The notes beneath the pieces are model-generated. The model saw only the letters and a list, made by a program, of their open reading frames with translations, had not been told where the DNA came from and did no database searches. The translations under genes and the position numbers were made by a program. DNA of 64,000 nucleotides from Polytrichum commune. Lineage: Eukaryota > Streptophyta > Polytrichopsida > Polytrichales > Polytrichaceae. The DNA is taken from the NCBI GenBank assembly GCA_950295325.1, contig OX485804.1, positions 46,996,001-47,060,000 of the forward strand, written 5' to 3'. Of the stretch, positions 940-62,546 are shown piece after piece (within the stretch, counting starts at the first letter, position 1; each line of letters starts with the position of its first letter).

Positions 940-3623
940 GTTGTGGGCCGGGCCGGTGTGGGAATTGACAATGTGGATCTTCAAGCAGCTACTGAAGTGG
1001 GATGCTTGGTTGTCAATGCCCCTACTGCGAACACAGTTGCTGCTGCCGAGCATGGGATCGCCCTCCTCACTGCTTTGGCCCGGAATGTTGCTCCAGCCAG
1101 TGCTTCCATGAAGGCCGGTAAGTTGTCATTAGTCTTCCAAGGATCACACATATCTTCGATTTTCTTGAACATTTCACAAGCCCTTATAGTCATCTCTTTC
1201 AAGAGATCAATAGCTATAACTTATTATAGCTTCTCCTGGTGATCTTACAAGGTTCCTGTGGGTTGACATTTAGTCCTGTTCACCATAAGACTCTTGCATC
1301 AAAATTGGCAGTTTAAAAAGTGATGGGATGGGGTTTGTGCAGGCAAGTGGCAGCGTAACAAGTATGTTGGAGTTTCACTCGTTGAGAAAACTTTGGGTGT
1401 GATGGGATTTGGAAAGGTGGGTTCAGAAGTTGCTCGCAGAGCAAGGGGACTTGGGATGCATGTGATTGCTCATGACCCCTACGCTTCAGCTGAACGTGCA
1501 AAGGCCATTGGTGTGGAGTTAGTCAGCTTCGAGGAGGCGCTCGCTCGCTCCGACTTTATTTCCCTCCACATGCCACTCACACCCACGACTGACAAAATCT
1601 TCAACGATGACAGCTTCAAGAGGTGCAAGAAGGGAGTGCGCATTATCAATGTGGCTCGGGGGGGTGTGATTGATGAGGATGCGCTCGTCCGGGCCCTTGA
1701 TGCTGGCATTGTTGCTCAGGTAATGGAGTCTCTTTTGTTTGCACATCACGTACCTTTGCATGTCTAAGATGTGTTTGTGTATCATTGATCTATGTGATTT
1801 TAGAACAACACGAGATTTAACATATTTTAATGCCATTCTGTGTGGCAGATGCAGTGTTTTGCAACTGTTTCTCTCAATTGACATTGAAGTGCAATCCGCT
1901 TGTTACAGGCTGCTTTGGATGTGTTTACTGTGGAGCCACCCAAGGAGGGCAATGCACTTGTCATGCATGAGAACGTTGTTGTAACACCCCACTTGGGCGC
2001 TAGCACAGTGGAAGCTCAGGTTTGTGATCCAGCACTACTATAATGGCCAATGCTACAGAATGTCTAATTTTCATGGTGCACAACGATCGACAATGATCAA
2101 CTCTGTAGATTACCCATTGCTATCCCTTAGTAACCTATTACATATATTCTTATGGAGTACAAATGGTTGGATCAACTTCCTTGAATGTTGTCCGGCTTGT
2201 AGAATATATATTTTTAGTGGGCATGCCGATTTATTCACTGAAACTTAACTTTTGCAGGAAGGGGTTGCTGTGGAGATTGCTGAGGCAGTAGTTGGAGCTT
2301 TGGCTGGAGAGCTATCAGCCACAGCTGTAAATGCACCCATGGTGCCTGCAGAGGTAAATTTTTGGTACACATCGGCGTGATCACTGACAATGGCAGAGGT
2401 GTATTGGACATTGACATTTGATTTAGGGTTTTTTCTAATTCCTGCAGCTTTGGCTAATTCGTGTCGTGTTGTTTTACAGGTGATCACCGAGCTTGCTCCA
2501 TATGTTTCCTTGGCAGAGAGGTTGGGACGGCTTGCCGTTCAGTTGGTATCTGGTGCTGCTGGAGTTAAGCAGGGTAAGGTTGTGTACCGTTCCGCACGGG
2601 CTGCTGATGACCTCGACACGCGCCTACTGAGGGCCATGATTATCAAGGGCCTGATTGAGCCAGTGTCAGATGCATTCATCAATTTGGTGAATGCTGACTA
2701 TGTGGCCAAGCAACGCGGATTGAGGATTAGTGAGGAGCGACAGCCTGCAGATGGTGCTGTTGATGTACCACTTGAGACAATCTCAGTAAGTTACTTCTTT
2801 TTTTCTAATCATTTCAAACTTCTCTGGGCCTTATATCAGACACCTATATTCGAGTGGTGTACGCTTGTAGTTAAGATTGGACTATGTGCTCAAAATATGA
2901 CAGCCATTCTAGGTTCAATTGTAAACAGATTTTGGAGGGCCTATGTGATCACTTTGACCACTTATAACTTCTGCATCTCAACTCTGACTCTGAAGCTTTT
3001 ATAGCTTCTGCGTCTCAATTCCAACTCTGGAACTTGAATGGTAATCTTCATTCATTGCAATTGCTAAGTGGATGAGTCTATTCCCAATTAGATCCAATGG
3101 CCAAAATTGCCTGTGGGCATGGTAGTGTCCACAATAGGGTCACATACCTGGAACCACGTGGAGGTGCATTGCACTTATCGTTGCGTCGTACAAAATCTTC
3201 ATGGTCCTTGGAACCTCTCATGTTGACCTCCTGCATTTTTCTTGTACCTTGCAGGTGACGATTGCAGGGGTGGAATCCAAATTTGCAAGTGCAATCGCAG
3301 ATCACACAGGAGACATCACCTTGGAAGGGAAGGTGAAGGATGGAGTGCCTTACCTCTCAAAGGTGGGCAGCTTCAGCGTCGATGTGAGTCTGGAAGGTAG
3401 CATCATCCTTTGCAGACAGGTGGATCAACCCGGCATGATTGGCAAGGTGGGATCCATCTTAGGACAAGAGAATGTGAACATCTCATTTATGAGTGTTGGC
3501 AGGACTTCACCAAGACAGCATGCTGTCATGGCGATTGGTGTTGATGAAGAGCCATCAAAGCCAACACTGAAGAAATTGGGTGATATCACAGCAATTGAAG
3601 AGTTTGTGTTCCTCAAACTATGA
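940..3623 (+). CDS. PGDH: D-3-phosphoglycerate dehydrogenase (serine biosynthesis), 5' exon(s) outside window
   Basis: Catalyses NAD-dependent oxidation of 3-phosphoglycerate, the first step of the phosphorylated serine pathway, in plastids of plants. Six exons join in one frame: 940-1117, 1343-1719, 1909-2019, 2258-2353, 2480-2785, 3255-3623, all GT-AG. They give 478 residues, against roughly 600 for plant enzymes. The missing N-terminus (transit peptide and start of the substrate domain) must lie upstream of base 1, since 1-939 reads as intron. Visible motifs: [12 protein letters not shown] at the exon start, the nucleotide fold GFGKVG followed by a D (HDPY), active-site Arg in NVARGGVID, Glu in TVEPP, His in TPHLGAST. 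The intervening ASB domain is spread over exons 4-6. An ACT regulatory domain ([16 protein letters not shown] onward) ends the protein. No lesion is visible in the part present. Confidence 0.95.
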
Positions 3624-14930: not shown

Positions 14931-15514
14931 CTAGTACTTTTTCCCCCTATCCTGCCCGTTTCCTACTGCCCGCTGCCCCGACCAGACTCCCAATTCCCAT
15001 CGCGGCACGAACAGATTGCAAGCCTTTTCCTCTTCCATTGTCTACACATACGTGCACGCACATAGGGTTACGATCCTCTCAACCTTTTCGCGTCACATCA
15101 GAGTCGGGGGCACATGCATCGAATCATTCTTGCAACATCATATGGCATCAGAATTTTTTGATTCATAGATGTGCTTCAGGGGTTAAATTGTGGTGTGGAT
15201 GGGCGAAGAAACGAGGATGACGCAAATTAGGTCGAACGGTCGGTGAGAGGGAAGGGAAGAGTGATTGGGAGAGTGATTGATAAGAGTGATTGGTAGATTG
15301 ATTGGGAGAGTGATTGATAAGAGTGATTGGTAGATTGATTGATAGAGTGATTGATTTCGGAATCAAGCATGCGGGGAGCGCAATCGTTAGTGGAAAAAAT
15401 TGGCAGTAGAACAATAAGAGCATGGAATTGTGTGTGTGGTGTTTCTGATTGAGAACGGAGAGCAATTTGCGGTTTTGCAGTACGCTTTCTGAATTGGCCG
15501 AGGAATTGGATTAG

Positions 15515-15550
<36 letters not shown>

Positions 15551-15571: not shown

Positions 15572-18500
15572 ATGGCGGACGTTTTGGAAGCGATGGGGTT
15601 TCCAAGCGATTGGTGTGAGCGGGCATTGCAGAGCACCAGCGGGATCGAACCTGCGGTGGAGTTGTTGCTGCAGTGGCAAGCAAACGGGGCTGCACCAACT
15701 CCAGCGGTCGCACCTGCACCTGCGGGGATGGCTCCAACTCTCCACCTATCAGGGAATCCGTCAGCACATACTGCTGTTTCTACCGTGACCACGGCAGCAT
15801 GTGGTCCATCTGATGCTGTAGTTCCTGATGCGTACGCCGATGAGCGGAAGCGGCGAACGGATGCGGCAGTGCGGCAGAGGAAGGTAATTTGGGCATCTGG
15901 ATGGAGTTTGGGAGGTTTCTGAGATAGTTCCTGGAAGGAATTACTACATGCTGAAGGGTTGTTACACTACAATGGTGGTTATGGTTGTAGTTGTGGCGAA
16001 CCACGATAATCAACCACAACTTCGGTTTTTTGTTTGTGAATCCTTGTGGTTGTGGTTGATGGTGGGGTTTGTCTTCTAAGTTTTCGCAATCTATCATTGG
16101 TTTAGGTCTTGAACTTGAGAAACAGTTGATGTGATTATTATCTTTGTTGTTGGCTTTAAATTGTAGTATTAAAATGGAAGGTAATTTGGGAATCTGGAAG
16201 GAGTTGGGGAGGTTTCTGAGATTCATGCTTATTGTTTTCGTCTCTAATGTACATTCTGAAGGGTTGTGTGCACTACAAAGGTGGATACGGTTAAGTGCAA
16301 TAATCAACCACAACTATGATTTTTTTCTTTTTCTTTTCTTAATAAGTATATATTCTACTTGTCTTGTGTGATTTATTGTGGGCGTGGTTGATGGTGGGGG
16401 TTGGTCTTCTAATTCGTTGCAATCTATCTTTGCTCTAGGTCTTGAAGTTGAGAAACAATTAAAGTGTTTTTTTATCCTCCTTGTTGGCCTTTGATTGTGG
16501 TGTTGAAGTGGTTGCTTCCTTAACTTTCTCCCTAGACCTTGGCCTTAAAGATCTTAAGTGGTGGTGCCACATGAGCATGAACAATCACCCTAAGGGTGGT
16601 TAACCACACGGAATAGTGGGGTAGAGGGAGGGTGGTTGTGGTTAGTATTTGTTATGCTTTTCCCATGGAAATAGAACCAAAGAAAGTAAATAACTACAAC
16701 TACGATCACGGCCACTCCTAGCCTTATCACCCCTTGAGTTCCTTTTCTGGTTTGCATTTATCTCCCTCGTTCATGCACTCTTGTCACATTTCACCAGTTA
16801 AGGTGGAGTAGGGTTGCTAAGGCAGAACAGTTTAGGGTGGAAGAATGGAATTTGCACTGTCTGCACACCAGTGTCATCTGGCCAGAATTCTGATTTTTCC
16901 ATTTTGCCATGGTTGTGTCACCAGGTTTTGCCATCTGAATAGTGGTTTACTCGGCCACAACTATTAGTGCTTAGTGCACTGTTGGTGTGGTTTTAAAATG
17001 TGTGATCATGCCTTCTGTATCAAGCTATTGGGGGTGAGACTGGTTTGAACTGATGTGAATATGCCTATGTATATATTTGAGGGCCAGGAACAAGAGGAGG
17101 CGAAGATGAAAATACGGCAGCACTTGGAGGAGGATAAAGCAAATCGGCAATGGCGCAATCAGCTTGCTGTTGGTACACCAGCGGTTAGCCGGAGCTGGCA
17201 GGCTGGTAACAATAGTGTTGATAATGTTGTCGAGCTGAACATCCGTTGTCCAGGTCATCCAAATATGAAGGAGCGATTCAGTGCAGGTACGAGTTAACAG
17301 CAAATTTTTATTTATCTTCCAACTTAAGGGAGAGCTTAGGTCATGGTGGCAGGTCTAGGTTTGTGAAAGGTATTGTGTTTAATGTGATGATTTTGTAGCT
17401 ACAGCAGACCTTGTACGGTGTGTTCTATTCAAAGAACCCTTCAGCAATTTCGTGAGAAGTAATAACTATGAGTATCTCACAAAGACGAGTGTTCCTGGGT
17501 GCCAGATGCAACCTTAAAGGATGTGAGGAAGTTTGTTCTACAGCAGCTGCAACGACAGCAGCTACCATTGTCTATAGGGATGCCATCAACTGCTGTGGCA
17601 AGTCGTCGTCTGGGAAGGCCTGTTCCTTTTAGTGGCGCCTCTGCAGCTCTATCATCTGACAGGTCTGTGCAAAGCTGTGCAACAAGCCTTTGATTCTTGT
17701 TTTTCTGCACAAATGAGAAGTTTGATGGTCTCTTGTTTTTTCAATAAACAAAAACAAGGAAATTGAACCTTGTTTTTAGGCGCATGCATTCCCTTTGCAA
17801 TGCTTAGAGGGGCTGGAATCTGAATTTAATAAGTTGTAATTTCTCTCCTCTCTAGATGCAAAGCCCTGATTTGTAGTAAGTGGTGCTTTGGATGATTTGA
17901 GTGTACATGCCTTGCGTGATTGAGTGGTAAGGAAAAGTGCAGGATGATATGTCAAGAAGCTTTGTAGTGTTCTTGTTGTTGTTCCACTCCTTTCGCATTA
18001 CATCCAAATTCTATTTTTTGCTCCAGATGCAGGTGTCGTGAATTACTCGCTTTGTTATGTTATAGTGATTGAATTTGAACCTTGGTTGATTGGATGCTTG
18101 GTTGTTGCAGAGAGGCACAACACGATATCTTGCAAGCTGCAAGAGAAAATTTTGAATTACAGACGAGTCGAATTGTGGCGCAAGCAAAGTCGATGAGAAA
18201 TGGTCAGTTGGGTACAGGCTCACCGGTGCTGCAAAACCAAGGGAGCGGGACCATTTACTTCTTGATCCCTTATCCACGAATGGTTTTTGATACAGGTGAT
18301 AGTGCAAGCCTCTGATGTTTCAGTTTTTGCACACCTGTCCATTAGTTGTAAGCTGTAGGTCAGAAAGTGCAGGTACAGGCGAACTTCTGATTCTGTGTCT
18401 TTAAATAGTACAGGATGTGATTGGCAATCAAATAGGTTAGGTGGAAGTGAATTGTAAGCTTATGTATTACTTCTGCCTATACACCTAGGGATTTGGTTTG

Positions 18501-21500
18501 TGGGCAAAAGAGGAAAGTATTGTTGGCCCTATTCCAGTGTATGAAACAGCAGGGTTCTAGTGGGGAGTGATGTTTATGGATCAGTGAGCCAGCGAAAACT
18601 GTCCATCTAAAAAATGTGTAAATAAGACTGAACTTTGTTCTCATAGATATTGAAGTAAAGGAGTGGGTGTTGGAAGGATGGTATACCTTGTCAAACATCA
18701 CAATCACTGGTCTTGTCCTTGAAGTGTGCATTTCGTGCCTCTCAACTGCTATTTTTGATGCAGAGGCATCTATGGAGACAACGTTACGGCAAGCAAACCT
18801 TGTTCCAAGAGGAGGCCTCACTGTGCAATTCCGATCATTCAAAGACGCATCTTCGTCTGAACAAGTCAATATATCGTCTGAACGTCTTAGACAACCACAA
18901 GAGAGTGTGAGTAGAGAAGCTGTACCTGGGCAACCAGGTCAATCCCCAGGAGAGAATCAGGTCAGGCAATATAGAGAGGATCCTGAAAAACGAGCACAAC
19001 GACTGAAAGCAACTGTGGATAGACTATCTGAAAGACGATATGGTGAATCGTCAGAGAATGCAGCACCTGCTGCAGCTTCAAGGCCCACATCAACACCAAC
19101 TCCAGCACCTTCTCAACCTGTGGCTATGAATAGGGAGGAGAGAAGCTTGGAGGTTGATGGTGAACGTGTTCGACATAGAGAACTTGCTTTACTGGCAGCT
19201 GCCAAAAGAATGAGTGAAGCAGCCCAGATTTTTCGAGATGGACTACCACCTGATGAAGGAGAGGCAGGGGGCGGATTTCATACACCATCTGACTTACCAG
19301 CTATGCCAGAATCTGCTAGAAATGATGGAGCAGTACAAGAGTTTTCCAATCTTCATGGGTCAAGGGTAGTAAATCATAGCCCTGGGAACCTGGATGTTAA
19401 AGGTAAGCAACCTGCAGATTGTGGTCCAAGTTCCCACCATATGCAATTGGCAGAGGTACAGGCACAGGATGGGGAAAGCCACATTGCAGGACCTACAGTG
19501 CGCTTCAGTAGGGCTCGAGTGCCACTGTCTTCTCCATTGTTATCGCGGCCAGAAAAGTTGCAGCGGACACATGAAGCAATCAACACTGGCTCCGATGAAG
19601 TAAATTTTGACCGAACATTTGCTGCTCGGTATGTCCAAACTTATAGAACTTCTGGTAATTCGAAGGCTTGGTATGGAAATGTGATGCCATCATATTATTG
19701 CATGATATGTCTGCAGGATGTTACAGTCTTAATTGGACATTTGGATTTGTTTCTGTTACGTCCTCTGTAGATTGGAGGTGGCTGTTTGTGCTTGACCTAG
19801 TTCTAGTCCTATTTAATCTACTTTGGGTTGAAGAAAGGATGTGTACTGAGATGTGTGTATCTGGAAGTGATGAAGGTAGTTTGGTATGATATTTGTGGCA
19901 GTGGACATGGCATGGATATTGCTGATAATAAAATGGAGGACATACAAGAAACTAGACCAACTGAAGAGGACACTGAAGGCTCCTCTAGTAGTGGTGGCCA
20001 CTTAATGAGTGAGCTACGGATACGCCTGGAAGATGGCAATGTGGTCACACATGCATTTCCTGCTTGTAAATTCTTCCAGACCCTACTACTTGATTGAATG
20101 TCCACTTGCCACAAGATTAGTGAATATTTCACCTGAATGTCTATCAGATATCTCTTTTCGGGATTGAAATTGACATTTTAATTTTGATATAACTCTCCGG
20201 ATCAAGTCTTATTTCATTCTGGTGCTTTGGGTTTTGAAACATCATTAGCTCTCATGCATGATCAAGATAGCTTATAAAGGGTTGTTGACTGTATATGCAG
20301 ATACTTCACTTCTGGCAGTCTGTGAATCTGTAGTTCCAGAGCATTCTTCAACTTCTGAGTATGGACTTGTAAGTGTCTGACACCTTATGTCTCTTTTTAG
20401 CATTGTCAACTCTTCACTGCTTGCATAAATGGGAGGGGTCACTAGTATAAGCATTAAATTGCGCCCTTCACAATCATCTAGATTTCTAATCAAGTGTACC
20501 CTAACAGGAGTTTTTGTGATTACCTTTACAAGTAATTTGTCCATTGCTAGAGTATTGTAGATTATAATGTCCATAAGGTCTACCACTGCTATTGTGATAC
20601 TGGAGTTGGCTAGATATAAGGTAGCATCTATTTACCTGATGTTGGTGGAATTTTAAGGTGTGAGATGTTCTCTTTGTTAACTCTTGGAAGTTTTGTTTCA
20701 AGCGAATTGATGGAAGGCATTGATTGGTGCAGATAATTCCAACTTCAGGATCACACTACTTGGAAGGAGAAGCATTGAATTCAACCCTTCAAGAAGGTAC
20801 CTTTCAACAGGCGCATCAGAAGTAGTCATTGTGGAGAGGTATTTTACTCTTTGCATGTGTCTCAATGGCAGAATTTTGTTGTCCTGTGCAGTGGGGCTTG
20901 TTCCGCGTGGTATGGTACACTTGCAAAAGGTGGCAAGCAGAGGGTTGGTTACGCAGGGTAGGAGGAGGACACGACGTGGAATGAGATATGCTCACAATAA
21001 TGATGAGCCTGAGCCTGAGCTGGAACAATTGTGGCAAGACTTTAGTCGTCATATGAATCCAAACCTTACATACGAAGAATTGGTAGAGCTTGAAGACAGC
21101 ATTGGCCGAGGTGATTTTAATATTCCAGATAATGTTATTTCTGCCAATCTGGTCTTTGTGTGCAGTGAAAGTTGATGTTTTCCCATATTCAGTGTCCCAC
21201 TGTCAAACCTGGTGAGGGAGAACTGGCTCACTTCTAACATTTACACTGTTTGTGCTTATAGCAAGGTCTCTGTAACGATGAAACTCCTTGTAACAGAGTT
21301 ATCGTTAAACTCAATGGGGCTTTTCAGCAGGAGGTGGTCCTCTATGATTTCCCAGTGGTGTTTTGTATACAAAACCAATGCAATATTTCCACTTGTGGTG
21401 CATGCTTGGAGGTTGTGTTTGAATTTGTATGAAGAGCAACCTATTTTGATTCACTGAGTGCCAATATCATTTTAGCACCCCCTTGGCATGCCAAAATGAG

Positions 21501-21935
21501 TATGGCCCTCAATGAACCGATGTAGAATGTACCTCTTTCAAACCTCCACACTTCCTCCAAGCTTGCATTTACTGAACATGGAAGGTTGTGTATGCAAAAC
21601 AACCAATACTGACCAAAAGGCCTGTTGAGTTAAAGGAGAACTCGAATGAGAGGTTTTAATTCTGTTGAGAAAGGTGGTGTTTGAACTTTTTGTTGCAAAC
21701 GTGGATGTGGGTTGTGACAGTGAATGTAGGGGTTCCGGAAGAAGCAATTGTGAATATGCCAACTCACATTGTTGCGAGGAGTGATGGGGATATTTGTATA
21801 GTGTGCTTGGGGGAGATGGTGGAGGGGGAAGAAGTCCTGTCATTGCCATGTGTACACACATTTCATCCTGCCTGTATCCGACAATGGCTGATGCAATCCA
21901 CATGCTGCCCAACTTGCAAACATTCTCTAACATAG
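15572..21935 (+). CDS. UBA / UBX / UBX / RING-H2 protein, predicted E3 ubiquitin ligase with CDC48-binding potential
   Basis: Ten exons join in one frame to 812 residues: 15572-15883, 17088-17286, 17506-17662, 18111-18295, 18764-19628, 19902-20065, 20301-20368, 20733-20796, 20892-21110, 21730-21935. Residues about 3-40 form a UBA domain with the MGF loop. Residues about 105-130 are charged and helical. A first UBX-like domain is split: beta/alpha part at about 150-190 (ELNIRCPG, DATLKDVRKFV), then about 75 inserted residues. It resumes at about 264-308 with the IPYPRMVF loop, equivalent to the FPR contact with Cdc48/p97, and TLRQANLVPRGGL. A 290-residue low-complexity linker follows. A second UBX-like domain at about 612-690 lacks the FPR loop. 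The C-terminus has a BIG BROTHER-like LTYEELVELED helix and a canonical RING-H2: C767, C770, C785, H787, H790, C793, C804, C807. The domains are seen; ligase activity and CDC48 recruitment are inferred. Confidence 0.85.
15882..16510 (+). repeat. Tandem ~300-bp duplication at the start of intron 1 of the UBX-RING gene
   Basis: Copy 1 (about 15882-16175) and copy 2 (about 16178-16510) share GGTAATTTGGG.ATCTGGA, GGGAGGTTTCTGAGAT, CTGAAGGGTTGT, AATCAACCACAAC, GTGGTTGATGGTGGGG and GAGAAACA. Copy 2 begins with the same AAGGTAATTTGGG string that forms the real exon-1 donor at 15884, so a second potential 5' splice site is present near 16180. Confidence 0.8.
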
Positions 21936-24505: not shown

Positions 24506-27500
24506 TTACTGTGCACCAAGGGCAAGAATTTCTTTGTCTTGCCTCTCACTAGTAAACCAGATCCTGAAGTTGTGAAAATTATCTTCTTTGATGGAGTCTC
24601 GAATAGCCTGGAAAAATGCAAGATAATGGTACGTGTTGTGTCTGCAGGAAACAGGATACAAGTCAAAAACAATAAATCTTTGCACAGACATTGTGGACAA
24701 GTCATGCAGAGTCACTATCACATAAATTTTCACATCCTGCAAACATGGAACAGTTCCAGTGGAATGCAAGGGGGATGAACATATCATCAAAACTACTCTG
24801 CTAGAATCAAGTGACGATTAACATGCTTCTCTTTGGTTTACAAGCCAACAAAAGAAACACTTACATGTCCAAAAGGGTTTGTGCCAACATTTCGTGGGTG
24901 TTGAGCAAATGGTTGATGTAAGCTCTTGTATGCTTCTGGCAAGTGTAGCACTGGCAACCTTTCACTAATGGCGTATTATCTAACCTGTTGCAGATTTCAC
25001 CACAAGTATCCAAGATGAGTTGACCACTACGTACTTGTTGTAAACAATTGCAGAGTTAGTATGTTACAAATTTGAATGTGATGCAATTGGAACAAGACAA
25101 GTATTCGCACTTGTATGAAACAGCACGAAGATTTATCTTTGCTGAATCTGTGCCAGCTTTGGCCTTCTCCTCCATGTAAGACTGTCTATGTGACAGGCCT
25201 TTTGAGGTTGTCTTCATGCAAAATGGGAAAGTCATGGCATAGCCTCCCATGGTTAACATATACGGATATCTAGAAGAAAGGTCAAGATATATGAACCACA
25301 TCATTGAAACACATGAAAAACTCAAATGTATCATTTACTCCATCCTTATATGTCACTTTAATCAAGTTTGATCTATATGAGTACTCAACAAAAAGTATGT
25401 TTTTGTAGGATACGTGCTCTCAAAGATATCAACTCCAGCTGCTACCCCCTGGAGCACATCCTCTGCTTATCTTCAAGAGCAACTCGATCAGAAGTGTCAT
25501 TTTCAGCATAAAGACCTAATTGATGAAAGCATTCTTCACCAAAATTTTGTTTTGATTTCAAGTAAACAAAAATATGAGATGTTTAATGGAACTAACCTGG
25601 CAATCCAAGCCCACTCACATGACGGAGCTTGTCCTTAGGTAGAATATTCTGTGGAAGCAGTGGAAATATCAGACCCTTCGTTGTTGAAAAGTACTCATAG
25701 GAGGTACAGCATGGTGTTAAAAACATATCAGAAGCAATATGAAACCGACTGCAAAGCTCGAGTTATATACCATAACAGCTTCCAGAAGTTCAGCACGGTC
25801 AGTTGCAGTTTCACCCATTCCAAATCCACCCAATGTAAAACCTGAAACCAGATATGTAACACACGCATTACATTGTATTAGTGCTATCAAAACTTAGGTG
25901 ATTTCATTTCAGATTTTCCATATTTTACCTGAAAAGACTACCTGAGAAGCTCTGAAAAGACCAACATGAATGGTTGACATTATTACCTAGCAGTGCATTC
26001 TTATATATAATACTGCTGGAAAATCTACTGATATGCCCACTATATTGGATTGCTGTTTACTCCATGTAGTGGAACGACCACTTTAACTGCTTATTTGGTT
26101 CCAGAATTCTCATACCCTGGGCGAAGATTGCTCTACATACCTGCCACATTTCGTATTGCCGTTTGTTGAGCAGATCGAATTCGTTGCTCAAGGCTGGTCC
26201 CTCCCAATACTACACCGAGGCATTTATTTCCATGCTCTGCCTAGAGCATAGCTTGTCAGTCTAGTTCCAGAATATACCAACTCCCTCAGTTGTAAAAAAA
26301 GATCGAACTTCTTGGTGGGTACTTAATTTTCGACCTAGTCATTGACACCTGGCAAATCTGAAAGAAAGGAGATGAACCAGGGGTGAAAGGCCCTTTGCCT
26401 AGTTCTATAACTTTGATACTCTGGTAACTTATCTCTGGTTAATACATCATGTGGAAAACAAAAAATAAAAGAAGCAAATCTGAAACTAGTTCAAATTCTA
26501 CTTCAGGAAGAGCTTGGAAGGTAGTCTGAATGCTAATGTGGCATACAGGTTGCAATGAGAGGCAATGGTCTAGCCACTGCAAGGTGCGATCAACAGACAT
26601 CCGATTGCGTTTCTCTGTCACCCAACTGGGAACTTCATCCGGCAGACTGGCCCATAAATCAGGTTTGCATGCATTGACAACCTCCATGTATTTTGCAGGC
26701 CCCACCTGCCTTCCCATGAATACATTAGCAAGACAGAAAGAGAAACAGTGAAGTTGCCAAAAAGTGAAGATGCCAAAGAAGTCTACAATACAGCAGCTCC
26801 TTGACCTCCTATTTGCATATAGAGCAGTAGATTGCACTTTAGGGATCAAGCAAACGACATCCTCATAACTTGAAAATTTTACACAGACAACCTTTCAACA
26901 ATCAGTGGCCCTGCCTCAAATTTCTTTTTAGACATGGCACAACCATATAGTTGGGGAACAGAAGCAAGAGGACATACTAGGCGGCGACCAGAAGAAGTCT
27001 CAAATGAGGCACCCTTTTTGGAAGCAGCCTCTCCATCTGTCTCGTCCATTAACCCATCTCTTGCCACCGCAACCATTCCATAGCCTGTTAAGCTTACAAG
27101 CTTGTGCAGCCCTCCTACATCTGCAACAACATTTGCTGTTGGACTGTCCAAGCTGTAGACAGTGAAATATCTTGTCATCAGACCCGCACATAGGGCACAT
27201 GCATGTCAGAAAGAGATAGCAGCATCACTATTTCAAGCGGAAGGTTGAAGCACCGATATGAATTGTCAGGAAATAGCACACTCCCTCCCATCTCAAACAG
27301 GCAAAATTAATCATCCACTTGTGCTGACGAACCAATAGTGGAAGACAACAAGTAACCATCCTTCTGTATTTCAATTTACAATCACAACCAATGACTTCAG
27401 CAACCTCCACATCACAACCACCAATTGACTGATTTCTGCGAACCAACGCCAACACAGATTGAATAACCTTGCGTGTCTGGATTTGCTGAATCACAATGTT

Positions 27501-58832: not shown

Positions 58833-61609
58833 TTAGCGACGTTGGTCCAAAAAGTCCTTCCTGCGCTTCAGGGACATGTTACTGCCGTCATCATTGGGCA
58901 AGAAATGCAAGTCTGGTTGGGATGGCTCCACCAACCCATGCTTGATTTGAGCTAGCAATGCCTGTTGTTTTCCCTGGACGACGTGAAAGTCAGCGAGGAG
59001 GTGTCGTAGCAGGAAAGTGTCACCTGTGGCCGCGTCCATGAACTCTGTTGCAAGGTTCCTCACTTTTTTTTCCATGTCCTCCTCAGATGGTGTCACACGT
59101 TGGCTGCCTTGAGCTGCACTTGGTGTGGGTGTGGGCAGTGTCGGTCCGGGTTCGTAACAATCATCTGGGAAATGAACAATCGGATCCAACATGTTACCAC
59201 GGCCGCCCTCGGTTGTGCCTGCAAGGGATCCACAGTAACGTGTAATGGTTCCCTCGGCGAGGCTAGGGTGGAATATCATGAGCACTTCAATCTGATGTTT
59301 GCAGATGTTTCCCTTCATTGCCCATGCGCAGTCACAACAACCCCACTCACAGTCTGGGTTGTACACAGAGTACAATTTAGCAGCATTGGTCTTCGAGGTT
59401 ACCAATGCTAGTCCAGCACACGCAATGGGTAGAGTGACACAACTGTCGGGGATTTCTCTTGCTTTGAGCACTGCATTGATGACGAATTGCTCCTGTTTCA
59501 AGTTGGGGACGAAGCCGTGTTGCTTCCTCATCGCCTGGTACCAATAGTGGGAGAGTATATCCTCTGTCAACTCGTATATGACCCAATCCAATCGACGTCC
59601 ATGTGCTCTTCCTTTTGAGGCACGCAAGGTGGCCTTCAGGTTGGAATGGTAGCTTTCAATTGCTGCATTAGTGTCCTGCCCAGCATATGGCAGGTTACGA
59701 TGCCCTACAACCCACATATGGGTTTTGTCTGCCCATTGTTTGTTGAAGTACGCCCAGAAATTGCTGACAATGGGGAAGCTATCCATAAGAGCATTTAATT
59801 GCCGAAGAGCCCAAGGCCCAATTTCATCTCCCTGGGGGCACTTTGTATCGTACATAATACGCCCCAATCCCTTTAGCACACCAACCCGGATAGCATGGTC
59901 TTTAATTTTTGCTACCGCTTGTTTCAACCATGCACGACGAACATGTCACAGGCACAGAAATACTTTAACTCTTGGCCACACAGATTGCAACCCTCCAATC
60001 TTTGCCTGCGCACAATCTGTAATGAAAGCATTCGGCATCCAATCTTCTTGCGCTGATGCCAATTTCGTGGCGAGCGCCCTCATCCATGGTTGAAGGTCAT
60101 GTTGTTTGGAACTATAAGTGATAATGTACGCCACGGGCACTCCGTTTAGCCAATCATCAAAGACCATCAAGGTGTACAGCGGAAACTGCAACCACAAAGA
60201 AAAAGGAAAACATTAGAGCTTAGGTGATCATACATGTTACGAATAACACATTTGTAACATGTGTCTCAGCAAAGTACTTAGTTGTGACGGTCTACAATTT
60301 GTCAGTCCATGGAGAATATATGGAACAAACCTTGTTCTCATTAGTTGTAAACGTGGCATCAATGGAAACAATTTTTTTATGCCCGTGCTTGAGCATCATA
60401 TCTTGTTGCCAACACGTTTGGATGCCTATCGTGAATGGCATATTGTCACGTGTAATAGCTCCCCGAACATGTACACCGGACTCTTTGTAGTAGAACACGA
60501 GATGGGGATGTTCTTGCACCCACATGCGCACAGATTTGGCATCATTGTTGTCACGTTTGTAGGTCTCTATTGCAAGGTGGCCAGCGACGTTACGGATGTC
60601 TTGGTCGCAAATGAAGAGGTCCCGAGTGAGGTCCTCACCTCTTTCACACACTTCCAGAAACCGTCTCCTATGTTTTGCCATGATTTGCGGGATAGACAAA
60701 CCCAGCCGCAAATGTTCCATGATGAATTCCCGAACATGCGGTGAGAGATGACTCGAAAATCTGCTCTTATGGCCAGTCTTTGTGGCACCATGGCAGAAGC
60801 ACCCTTTCAAGTTGACATGCTGCATCTGGTGGTATATTACCTCTGCAACCGAGGGCTCAAGGTATAATCGCTTCACAAGAAAACCACATTGGCACCCCCT
60901 TCGTTGGCCAAATTCTCGCATCCTCGCGGATGTGCGAGGACCTGAGTGACCCTTACCATTTGGAACGTATTTCCCTTTCGAATCCAGTTTTTGTTTCTTC
61001 TGGTACATATCCTTTGTAACCACTGGTATGTGCAAAGCATTGTCATTTGGTCCATACTGGCAGTAATACCTGGGGAGGAGAACAAGTGGTTGACGGGATA
61101 GTCATTAACCCCAAGCCACAAACATGTCTGAGCGTTGTAACATTGGAAGATGCAAAATAGAATTGAGATCGCATGTTACAAGCACACCTGAGGATGGCAG
61201 AGTAGTTGTTCCAGCGGGGGAACATTAATTTCCCCTGTTCGTTTGATGCAATGCCCTGGCAAACAAATTTGCAGGGCGCATCTGTGCGAGCCTCCTCACC
61301 CTTCACAAAATCTCGGACTCTTGCCCAGGGTATATATGCAACGGAGACTGGCGCTTGAGTCCTGGAACCAGACCCCCTCCCTTTCCGCCGGATCTGCGGT
61401 GTCTACGTTAGATCGCTGTGCATGAAGGTACCTGCTTGGGGTATCTGAACCAAACTGCGCAGGCGCTCAAACTCCCCTTTGTGTGCCTCCTGGTATGTGG
61501 ACTCGTACGAAGGATCCACACCCAACGGCATGCGATGACTTGTAACGTGTCCGCCACTATGCATTTCGGTAGAGGAGTGAAGGATGACGCCAACCACAGA
61601 GGATCCCAT
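58833..61609 (-). pseudogene. Mutator-like (MULE) transposase with SWIM finger, two in-frame stops
   Basis: Three exons in phase (minus order): 61188-61609, 60331-61069, 58833-60185, 838 codons including stops. The order of parts is typical of MULE/FAR1-type transposases: a Cys/His-rich N-terminal DNA-binding region (GCQCGF..., HQMQHVN, GCFCHG), then the catalytic DDE core. The core has D in VSIDATFTTNENK, D in FITDCAQAKIG and E in TNAAIESYHSNLK. A SWIM zinc finger follows (CDCAWAMKGNICKHQ). Lesions: TAG at 61403-61405 after MHSDLT, with the same frame continuing afterwards, and TGA at 59946-59948 in the conserved FLCxxHVRRAW stretch, where Trp is usual. No frameshift was seen, so inactivation appears recent. 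Whether any copy elsewhere is active cannot be told here. Confidence 0.85.
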
Positions 61610-61940
61610 TGAAGTTTTGTTGTGGTCAAAGTTTTCCGCTCATTTCCTGGGCAGCACTGCTTGTGCATGCAATGAGGTAATATACCTGGAAGCAATGAGT
61701 AGAGTGATGAACATAAAGCGCCAAACACAAGGTAGGGAGTGCACATAGGTGTAACGTGACTGCCAAAGCACATTCACAAGACGCCAATCGCTTTGAGAAG
61801 ATAAAGACCGCGTGGTGTGAAGACATCATTGTTACAGTCGCATGAGATTGACAAGAAAGAGTGTAATGTGGCTGCAGAGAGGACTAAGTAGTAAATGAAC
61901 AGATTTCAATGAGGCATAAGCAATTTTTGACTGCAGATCT

Positions 61941-62546
61941 GATGAGAAATATGGGAAGCAAGTCAAATGTGATGAGGAGTATGGGAAGCAAGTCAGATCT
62001 GATGAGGAATGTGGGAGGCAAGTCAGATGTGATGAGGAGTATGGGAAGCAAGTCAGATGTGATGAGAAATGTGGGAGGCAAGTCAGATGTGATGAGGAAT
62101 ATGGGAAGCAAGTCAGATGTGATGAGGAACTTGGGAAGCAAGTCAGATCTGATGAGGAGCTTGGGAAACAAGTCAGATATGTTGAGGAGCTTGGGAAGCA
62201 AGTCAGATCTGATGAGGAGACATATACCTTCACAACATCATTCTTGGCTTGGCATTAGTACATGGAAGACACCCCAGTGGCGCCCTAAACCAGATTGTTA
62301 TGCAATGCACATGTTACGTGATGAGGAATATGGGAAGCAAGTCAGATGTGATGAGGAACTTGGGAAGCAAGTCAGATCTGATGAGGAGATTGGGAAACAA
62401 GTCAGATATGTTGAGGAGCTTGGGAAGCAAGTCAGATCGGATGAGGAGACATATACCTTCACAACATCATTCTTGGCTTGGCATCAGTACATGGAAGACA
62501 CCCCAGTGGCGCCCTAAACCAGATTGTTATGCAATGCACATGTTAC
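61941..62546 (+). repeat. 30-bp minisatellite within a 229-bp tandem duplication
   Basis: Nine 30-base units of the type GATGAGGAATATGGGAAGCA + AGTCAGATGT run from 61941 to 62210. A unique block follows (CATATACCTTCACAACATCA through to ATGCACATGTTACG). Four more units start at 62320, then the same unique block again to 62546. The offset between the two large copies is 229 bases. Thirty bases are ten codons, so long frames stay open on both strands (MRNMGSKSDV repeats on plus). These are not treated as genes. Confidence 0.9.

Follow-up and report, generated by a model that had tools for sequence, protein, structure and literature searches.

A predicted Polytrichum commune gene joins UBA- and UBX-like domains to a CTL-type RING-H2 finger

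Introduction

As a rule, CDC48/p97 receives its clients from ligases and adaptors that are separate proteins, and the pairings between the two are often unclear. Here we describe a predicted Polytrichum commune gene whose product would carry a probable UBA domain, two UBX-like folds (UBX1 and UBX2) and a CTL-type RING-H2 finger in one chain. The gene lies in a 64,000-nucleotide stretch of DNA (the window: assembly GCA_950295325.1, contig OX485804.1, positions 46,996,001 to 47,060,000, forward strand), and the closest described systems are the UBA-UBX adaptors, the CTL ligases and gp78/AMFR.

UBA-UBX adaptors (SAKS1/UBXN1, p47, FAF1, UBXD7, UBXD8 and the plant PUX proteins) share with the fusion protein an N-terminal UBA-like domain, a charged segment and a UBX domain with a near-canonical patch. 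The fusion protein differs from them by the addition of a second UBX and a RING, and by a 77-residue insert that splits UBX1. According to section 2.1 of PMC8181520, a C-terminal UBX is the only feature common to PUX proteins, whereas neither UBX of the fusion protein is C-terminal, as the RING follows them. UBX domains bind the CDC48 N domain with a strand 1 arginine together with an FPR loop that connects strands 3 and 4, and a triple mutation of this R...FPR patch weakens PUX10-CDC48 binding (excerpt of PMC11410653). The UBX-L domain of OTU1 places a Tyr instead of the Phe in the same pocket, and the same passage gives its binding to p97 as 700 nM (excerpt of PMC5559722).

Excerpts of PMC5764321 define the CTL family by a 21-residue YEELL motif adjoining the RING-H2, list BIG BROTHER as CTL19 and Arkadia/RNF111 as a human CTL member, and use the residue at the LPC position to separate ATL ligases from BTL and CTL ligases, which are without the extra residue. 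The fusion protein resembles the CTL ligases (BIG BROTHER, RNF111/Arkadia, RNF38, RNF44, RNF165) in having the LPC spacing of a CTL or BTL, but its N-terminal part consists of UBA-UBX-UBX.

A functional precedent is offered by gp78/AMFR, in which one chain carries a RING, a CUE domain that binds ubiquitin and a VIM that binds p97 (excerpt of PMC5559722). In contrast to the fusion protein, for which the proposed route to CDC48 is a UBX domain, gp78 is an endoplasmic reticulum membrane protein that binds p97 by a helix, and Pfam detects no CUE domain in the fusion protein. Among the open-licence papers searched, we saw no report of UBX and RING in one protein, or of BIG BROTHER together with UBX. 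Neither 'UBX' nor 'UBA' occurs in the main texts of PMC5764321 and PMC6118397 or in the excerpted text on GpDSR7 of the moss Grimmia, a protein that has transmembrane spans as well as a RING. The pairing of UBX with a CTL RING looks new.

Results

An earlier reading of the sequence alone had proposed a ten-exon gene spliced in phase into 812 residues, and this model was reproduced (Table 1). Exons 1-5 (15572-15883, 17088-17286, 17506-17662, 18111-18295 and 18764-19628) and exons 6-10 (19902-20065, 20301-20368, 20733-20796, 20892-21110 and 21730-21935) are separated by nine introns, all GT...AG, with every junction in phase and a stop codon at 21933-21935. The T fraction is 0.32-0.38 in the predicted introns versus 0.20-0.27 in nine of the ten exons, exon 7 being at 0.37. 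Retention of any single intron, tried for all nine, led to a stop within 3-47 codons, and AATAAA occurs only in intron 3, at 17743. Because a second in-frame AG acceptor can be read at the start of exon 2 (17082) and of exon 10 (21721), the protein may be longer or shorter by a few residues. By eye, the stretch at 15255-15550, immediately ahead of the start codon, contains GAGTGATTGATAAGAGTGATTGGTAGATTGATTG-type repeats and a run of GA; these likely sit in the promoter or 5′ untranslated region.

The central claim of the sequence-only reading, that UBX and RING-H2 are fused in one protein, is borne out by Pfam matches to both that exceed the curated cut-offs and by the junction in exon 9. In this exon the end of UBX2, VGLVPRGMVHLQKV, is followed by LWQDFSRHMNPNLTYEELVELEDSIGR, the YEELL segment that precedes the RING in CTLs, and since no splice is needed to connect them, both are parts of the same chain. 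An artefact of frame choice was also considered and was ruled out, as the last UBX2 strand and the CTL segment are linked within exon 9 itself, and UBX is detected by profiles across exons 2-5 and 6-9.

Could the locus nevertheless hold two neighbouring genes? A UBA-UBX gene might end at 19770, past the donor at 19628, as the exon 5 frame is open through that donor to a stop at 19770; a second gene might begin at one of the in-frame Met codons near the start of exon 6, the first at 19912, and encode UBX2-YEELL-RING. Such an arrangement would leave only about 140 bases between the genes, whereas the splice signals at 19628/19902 are both good by eye and join in phase, and the gap between them is as T-rich as the other introns and without AATAAA. 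We regard two genes as improbable, and even then the RING would share its chain with a UBX fold, namely UBX2, which is without the FPR loop.

Domains were sought by scanning the 812 residues with Pfam at a lax limit (E up to 10) and comparing scores with the curated cut-offs (21 bits for UBX, 22.4 bits for UBA). UBX was matched in two stretches, with an E value of 2.6e-10 for the whole protein. UBX1 passes the cut-off with its insert excised (5.9e-8, 33.3 bits) or retained (2e-5, 25.1 bits), and UBX2 passes it alone (3.5e-5, 24.4 bits); the profile search that the sequence-only reading had named as a check therefore detected UBX folds. The first half of UBX1 alone, in a 189-residue N-terminal construct, reached 19.4 bits over positions 5-41 of the hidden Markov model, just under the cut-off, and the 77 insert residues were left unassigned. 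Counting against the domain calls, the second half of UBX1 and two pieces of UBX2 gave no Pfam match when scanned singly (0/3). In comparisons with PDB, UBX1 matched four UBX chains at E 0.1-1 (UBXD4, UBXD2 and TUG twice), and in two of the alignments with UBX structures (E 0.1 and 0.2) its YPR lies opposite their FPR. UBX2 had four matches at E up to 10, none of them a UBX, the nearest in kind being a 'ubiquitin family' chain (0.81). UBX2 is therefore divergent, since its pieces fail alone and no UBX is among its PDB matches; its alignment with UBX1 was equalled by none of 1000 shuffles. Thus both UBX-like folds of the sequence-only reading stand by their Pfam scores, but a near-canonical CDC48-binding patch is present in UBX1 only, UBX2 having TSG.

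UBX1 and UBX2, which may or may not stem from an internal duplication, also have in common a phase-1 intron after F[SP]A that is absent from six other UBX exons of the genome (loci L002-L007). Among seven UBX domains, UBX2 is best matched by UBX1 (score 48, Z 6.6), with L002 near behind (47, Z 5.7). The best match of UBX1 is L007 (score 80, Z 12.4; the L007 acceptor is provisional), and L002 and L003 also outrank UBX2. The UBX and CTL relatives in the assembly are presumably of the plant PUX and CTL types. Elsewhere in the genome, four loci (L017, L019, L020 and L022, on contigs C4, C7, C1 and C4) hold UBX exon fragments that are almost the same (TPGACRVGIRFPDGSRGHRRFLKT, with P replaced by L in one). 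Their upstream sequence is similar, and L019, L020 and L022 have one common, different continuation, as if a piece of a PUX gene had been carried by a mobile element. A further UBX exon (L018, C5:16051629-16051760) is one that we take to be of TUG/PUX1 type.

The N-terminal UBA of the sequence-only reading is probable, not secure. All four PDB matches of the N-terminus at E up to 1 (0.1-0.32) are chains of USP5 (twice), Sts-1 and the UBA/UBX 33.3 kDa protein (E 0.32), and the USP5 and Sts-1 chains presumably contain UBA domains. The Pfam match to residues 5-32, at 16.1 bits (E 0.01), stays below the curated 22.4.

The putative CDC48-binding patch of UBX1 consists of R157 and Y277-P278-R279, in which Tyr for Phe is a conservative change. 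Because UBX2 has TSG in place of FPR, UBX1 appears the likelier CDC48 binder, and its binding is plausible since UBX-L of OTU1 uses a Tyr in the same pocket. In the six other UBX exons of the genome (L002-L007), the FPR position reads FPR in three, FPH in one, FPP in one and LPP in one; departure from the full motif is therefore not unusual in this genome.

Between the two UBX domains, two predicted helices bear a weak resemblance to VIM p97-binding helices, whose consensus is RX5AAERR (excerpt of PMC5559722). A single-sequence AlphaFold model of linker residues 345-480 places helices at 346-354, 358-377 and 408-442, with a mean predicted local distance difference test score (pLDDT) of 65.4 and block values of 85-88 around the VIM-like sequence of the last helix. 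The pattern [RK]x5xxERR at 366-376 arises in 4.9% of whole-protein and 2.9% of linker shuffles. The pattern at 423-433 arises in 0.5% and 0.35%, respectively, figures that refer to a pattern relaxed after the match had been seen.

At the C-terminus, the textbook RING-H2 of the sequence-only reading was confirmed: zf-RING_2 was placed at residues 766-808 with an E value of 3.3e-11, above its curated cut-off, and all eight ligands are present (C767, C770, C785, H787, H790, C793, C804 and C807). The best PDB matches are RLIM, ZNRF3, ARK2C/RNF165 and Arkadia, and the spacing is that of an LPC without the extra residue. Arg after the last RING Cys is the usual 'linchpin', and the fusion protein has K808 there. 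This would suit a CDC48 adaptor whose RING is inactive as a ubiquitin ligase (E3), or has no role beyond dimerising or regulating the adaptor, but we give such a role little chance: the eight ligands and I768, W797 and P805, which we take to be the contact residues for the ubiquitin-conjugating enzyme (E2), are all retained, and the three resolved CTLs of the same genome also have no Arg at that position (CPVCK in L010, CPVCS in L030 and L031).

The YEELL motif, TYEELVELEDSIG, lies 23 residues ahead of the first RING ligand. It agrees with the consensus at 9 of 13 specified positions and departs from it at the other four (P, V, G and E at positions 1, 9, 18 and 21). The likeness to BIG BROTHER noted earlier from the sequence thus becomes sharper, as the motif that defines the CTL family is present.

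CTL genes of the same genome were located through their RING exons. Twelve RING loci (nine plus three) were examined, and four were CTL-like by eye (L010, L030, L031 and L032). A YEELL-type exon was found in three of the four, L030, L031 and L010 (in its upstream stretch, L028), and was not found at L032 within the stretch read; the strict YEELL pattern matched none of the nine RING loci of the first set. The genes compared were therefore L030 (up to its last intron), L031 and L010/L028, the last being more distant; in each of them the motif exon is readable. Alignment of the YEELL segment with each of these three CTLs was equalled by none of 2000 shuffles. From WQD to the RING, the fusion protein and L030 are identical at 37 of 93 positions, with 14 gap positions, in a single ordered alignment (E 2e-21 for one comparison), whereas alignment with the ATL-type L008 is confined to the RING and has a gap at the LPC position. 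In the genome, a longer YEELL DNA pattern matched the fusion gene alone, yet its reversed control also gave one match. A shorter pattern gave 43 matches versus 37 for the reversed control, which is chance level, and did not match the fusion gene; near six of the 43 matches, no RING was found within the 2.5-2.7 kb read.

The fusion gene differs from the CTL genes in its introns. The CTL motif is cut in phase 0 at YE|E (L030 and L031) or YE|S (L010/L028), a second intron, in phase 2, precedes the first RING cysteine by one or two codons in all three, and a further intron at NK|VCP is present in two of the three. The fusion gene has none of these, so that two introns of all three resolved CTL genes are missing from it, and the single intron of its RING module lies at IGR|G, in phase 1, inside the 21-residue span. 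This is consistent with the capture of a processed CTL copy that had no introns, or with loss of introns. An excerpt of PMC5764321 describes a splice site inside the YEELL motif as highly conserved in CTLs. A table in the same paper gives three Physcomitrella CTL genes with 4, 4 and 6 coding introns; none therefore resembles the nine-intron fusion gene, in a survey that may miss divergent members.

The 408-Mb assembly (64 contigs, seven of which total about 406 Mb) was searched for further copies. At the sensitivity of these searches no second copy was detected with exon 1 (the one match was the gene itself) or with exons 2-5 (all four matches in the gene itself). Exons 9-10 gave 46 matches, two in the gene itself and 44 elsewhere, all 44 over the RING part. 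The UBX profile (PF00789) found 12 places at E up to 1, of which none is in the fusion gene, and the UBX cut-off was passed exon by exon at eight places in the genome; this search thus misses UBX domains split between exons and cannot show the absence of other such genes. NCBIfam gave no family for the protein, as expected of a library made for prokaryotes.

Table 1. Predicted features of the fusion gene, in window coordinates
Feature	Position	Strand	Basis or remark
Whole gene, ten coding exons, 812 aa	15572..21935	+	In-phase splicing, all GT-AG
UBA-like domain, residues 5-33 (MGF loop)	15584..15670	+	Pfam UBA 0.01, below cut-off; UBA-chain PDB matches
UBX1 first half, residues 151-189; strands 1-2 and helix 1, R157	17226..17561	+	Spans intron 2
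77-residue insert within UBX1, residues 190-266	17562..18240	+	Spans intron 3; between helix 1 and strand 3 of profile
UBX1 second half, residues 267-311; Y277-P278-R279 in strand 3/4 loop	18241..18843	+	Spans intron 4; composite UBX1 5.9e-8
Helix with weak VIM-like sequence, residues 366-376 (K-x5-LSERR)	19006..19038	+	[RK]x5xxERR; predicted helix 358-377
Helix with VIM-like sequence, residues 423-433 (R-x5-AA-x-K-R; R-x5-AAAKR)	19177..19209	+	Predicted helix 408-442
UBX2, residues 608-685, exons 6-9; R614 kept, T654-S655-G656 replaces FPR	20005..20932	+	Pfam 24.4 bits; aligns with UBX1
Exon 9: last UBX2 strand and WQD...YEELL segment in a single exon	20892..21110	+	Direct sequence
WQD...YEELL segment of CTL ligases, residues 719-743	21032..21106	+	Aligns with three same-genome CTL genes
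RING-H2, residues 767-807	21795..21917	+	zf-RING_2 3.3e-11

Elsewhere in the window, exons of a D-3-phosphoglycerate dehydrogenase gene lie at 2381-3623 on the + strand (PGDH_inter 1.5e-15, ACT 2.2e-10), and an exon matching queuine tRNA-ribosyltransferase at 26442-26894 on the - strand (TGT 3.1e-8). Two long open frames at 58833-61101 on the - strand have no Pfam match at 0.01; we take them to be transposase-like, and this is perhaps a DNA transposon. An open frame at 61888-62517 on the + strand consists largely of repeats of about 10 residues (MRNMGSKSDV).

Discussion

The domain content suggests, with somewhat better than even confidence on our part, a soluble CTL-type RING-H2 E3 that recruits CDC48 itself through an N-terminal UBA-UBX adaptor part. 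We infer that the gene is expressed as a single transcript, that the protein binds ubiquitin and CDC48 and acts as a ligase, and that CDC48 binding and ligase activity are coupled. In such a protein the UBA would retain ubiquitin or clients that carry it. UBX1 would bind the N domain of CDC48 through R157...Y277-P278-R279, perhaps assisted by one or two VIM-like linker helices, and the RING at the C-terminus would bring in an E2 and build a ubiquitin chain or lengthen an existing one. The client would thus be tagged and then passed to CDC48 without leaving the complex. Having lost its FPR loop, UBX2 would more likely be a scaffold, or may bind something else. The self-contained extraction module of the sequence-only reading is plausible but has a precedent in gp78.

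Several observations weigh against this function. The UBA match falls short of its cut-off; UBX2 retains R614 but has TSG instead of the FPR loop; the UBX1 loop is YPR, not FPR, and strand 3 is immediately preceded by the 77-residue insert. The strict VIM, RX5AAERR, is absent from the protein, and the relaxed form found at 423-433, R-x5-AA-x-[RK]-R, was picked post hoc and departs from the consensus. The single-sequence structure model of the RING exon is poor (pLDDT 50.5). When the RING is compared by itself, its best genomic match is not a CTL but the ATL-like L008, which is locally the more identical one (26/49); the CTL assignment therefore rests on the YEELL segment and the LPC spacing. 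The weak UBA and the altered UBX loops, with the insert, would also suit a CTL-type ligase that no longer uses CDC48 and keeps its UBX folds as scaffold or client-binding modules. We consider this rather unlikely, as UBX1 retains R157 and the Pro-Arg pair and the Tyr-bearing UBX-L, at 700 nM, is a p97 binder (excerpt of PMC5559722).

For the origin of a CDC48-recruiting CTL ligase of this kind, a fuller account can be offered tentatively, as a doubtful possibility. A UBA-UBX gene may have captured a processed, intron-less CTL C-terminus behind a degenerate UBX2, and VIM-like linker helices may then have evolved, giving one soluble chain that binds ubiquitin, contacts CDC48 at as many as three points and ubiquitinates the client. 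The result would be a cytosolic equivalent of gp78, based on UBX and of independent origin in a plant lineage.

If the proposed function is true, a natural chain would show that tagging and extraction can be covalently coupled, and single-chain degraders could be modelled on it. The protein would identify one pair of ligase and adaptor in plants, and it would be a clear case of the CTL ligase family being recruited by gene fusion.

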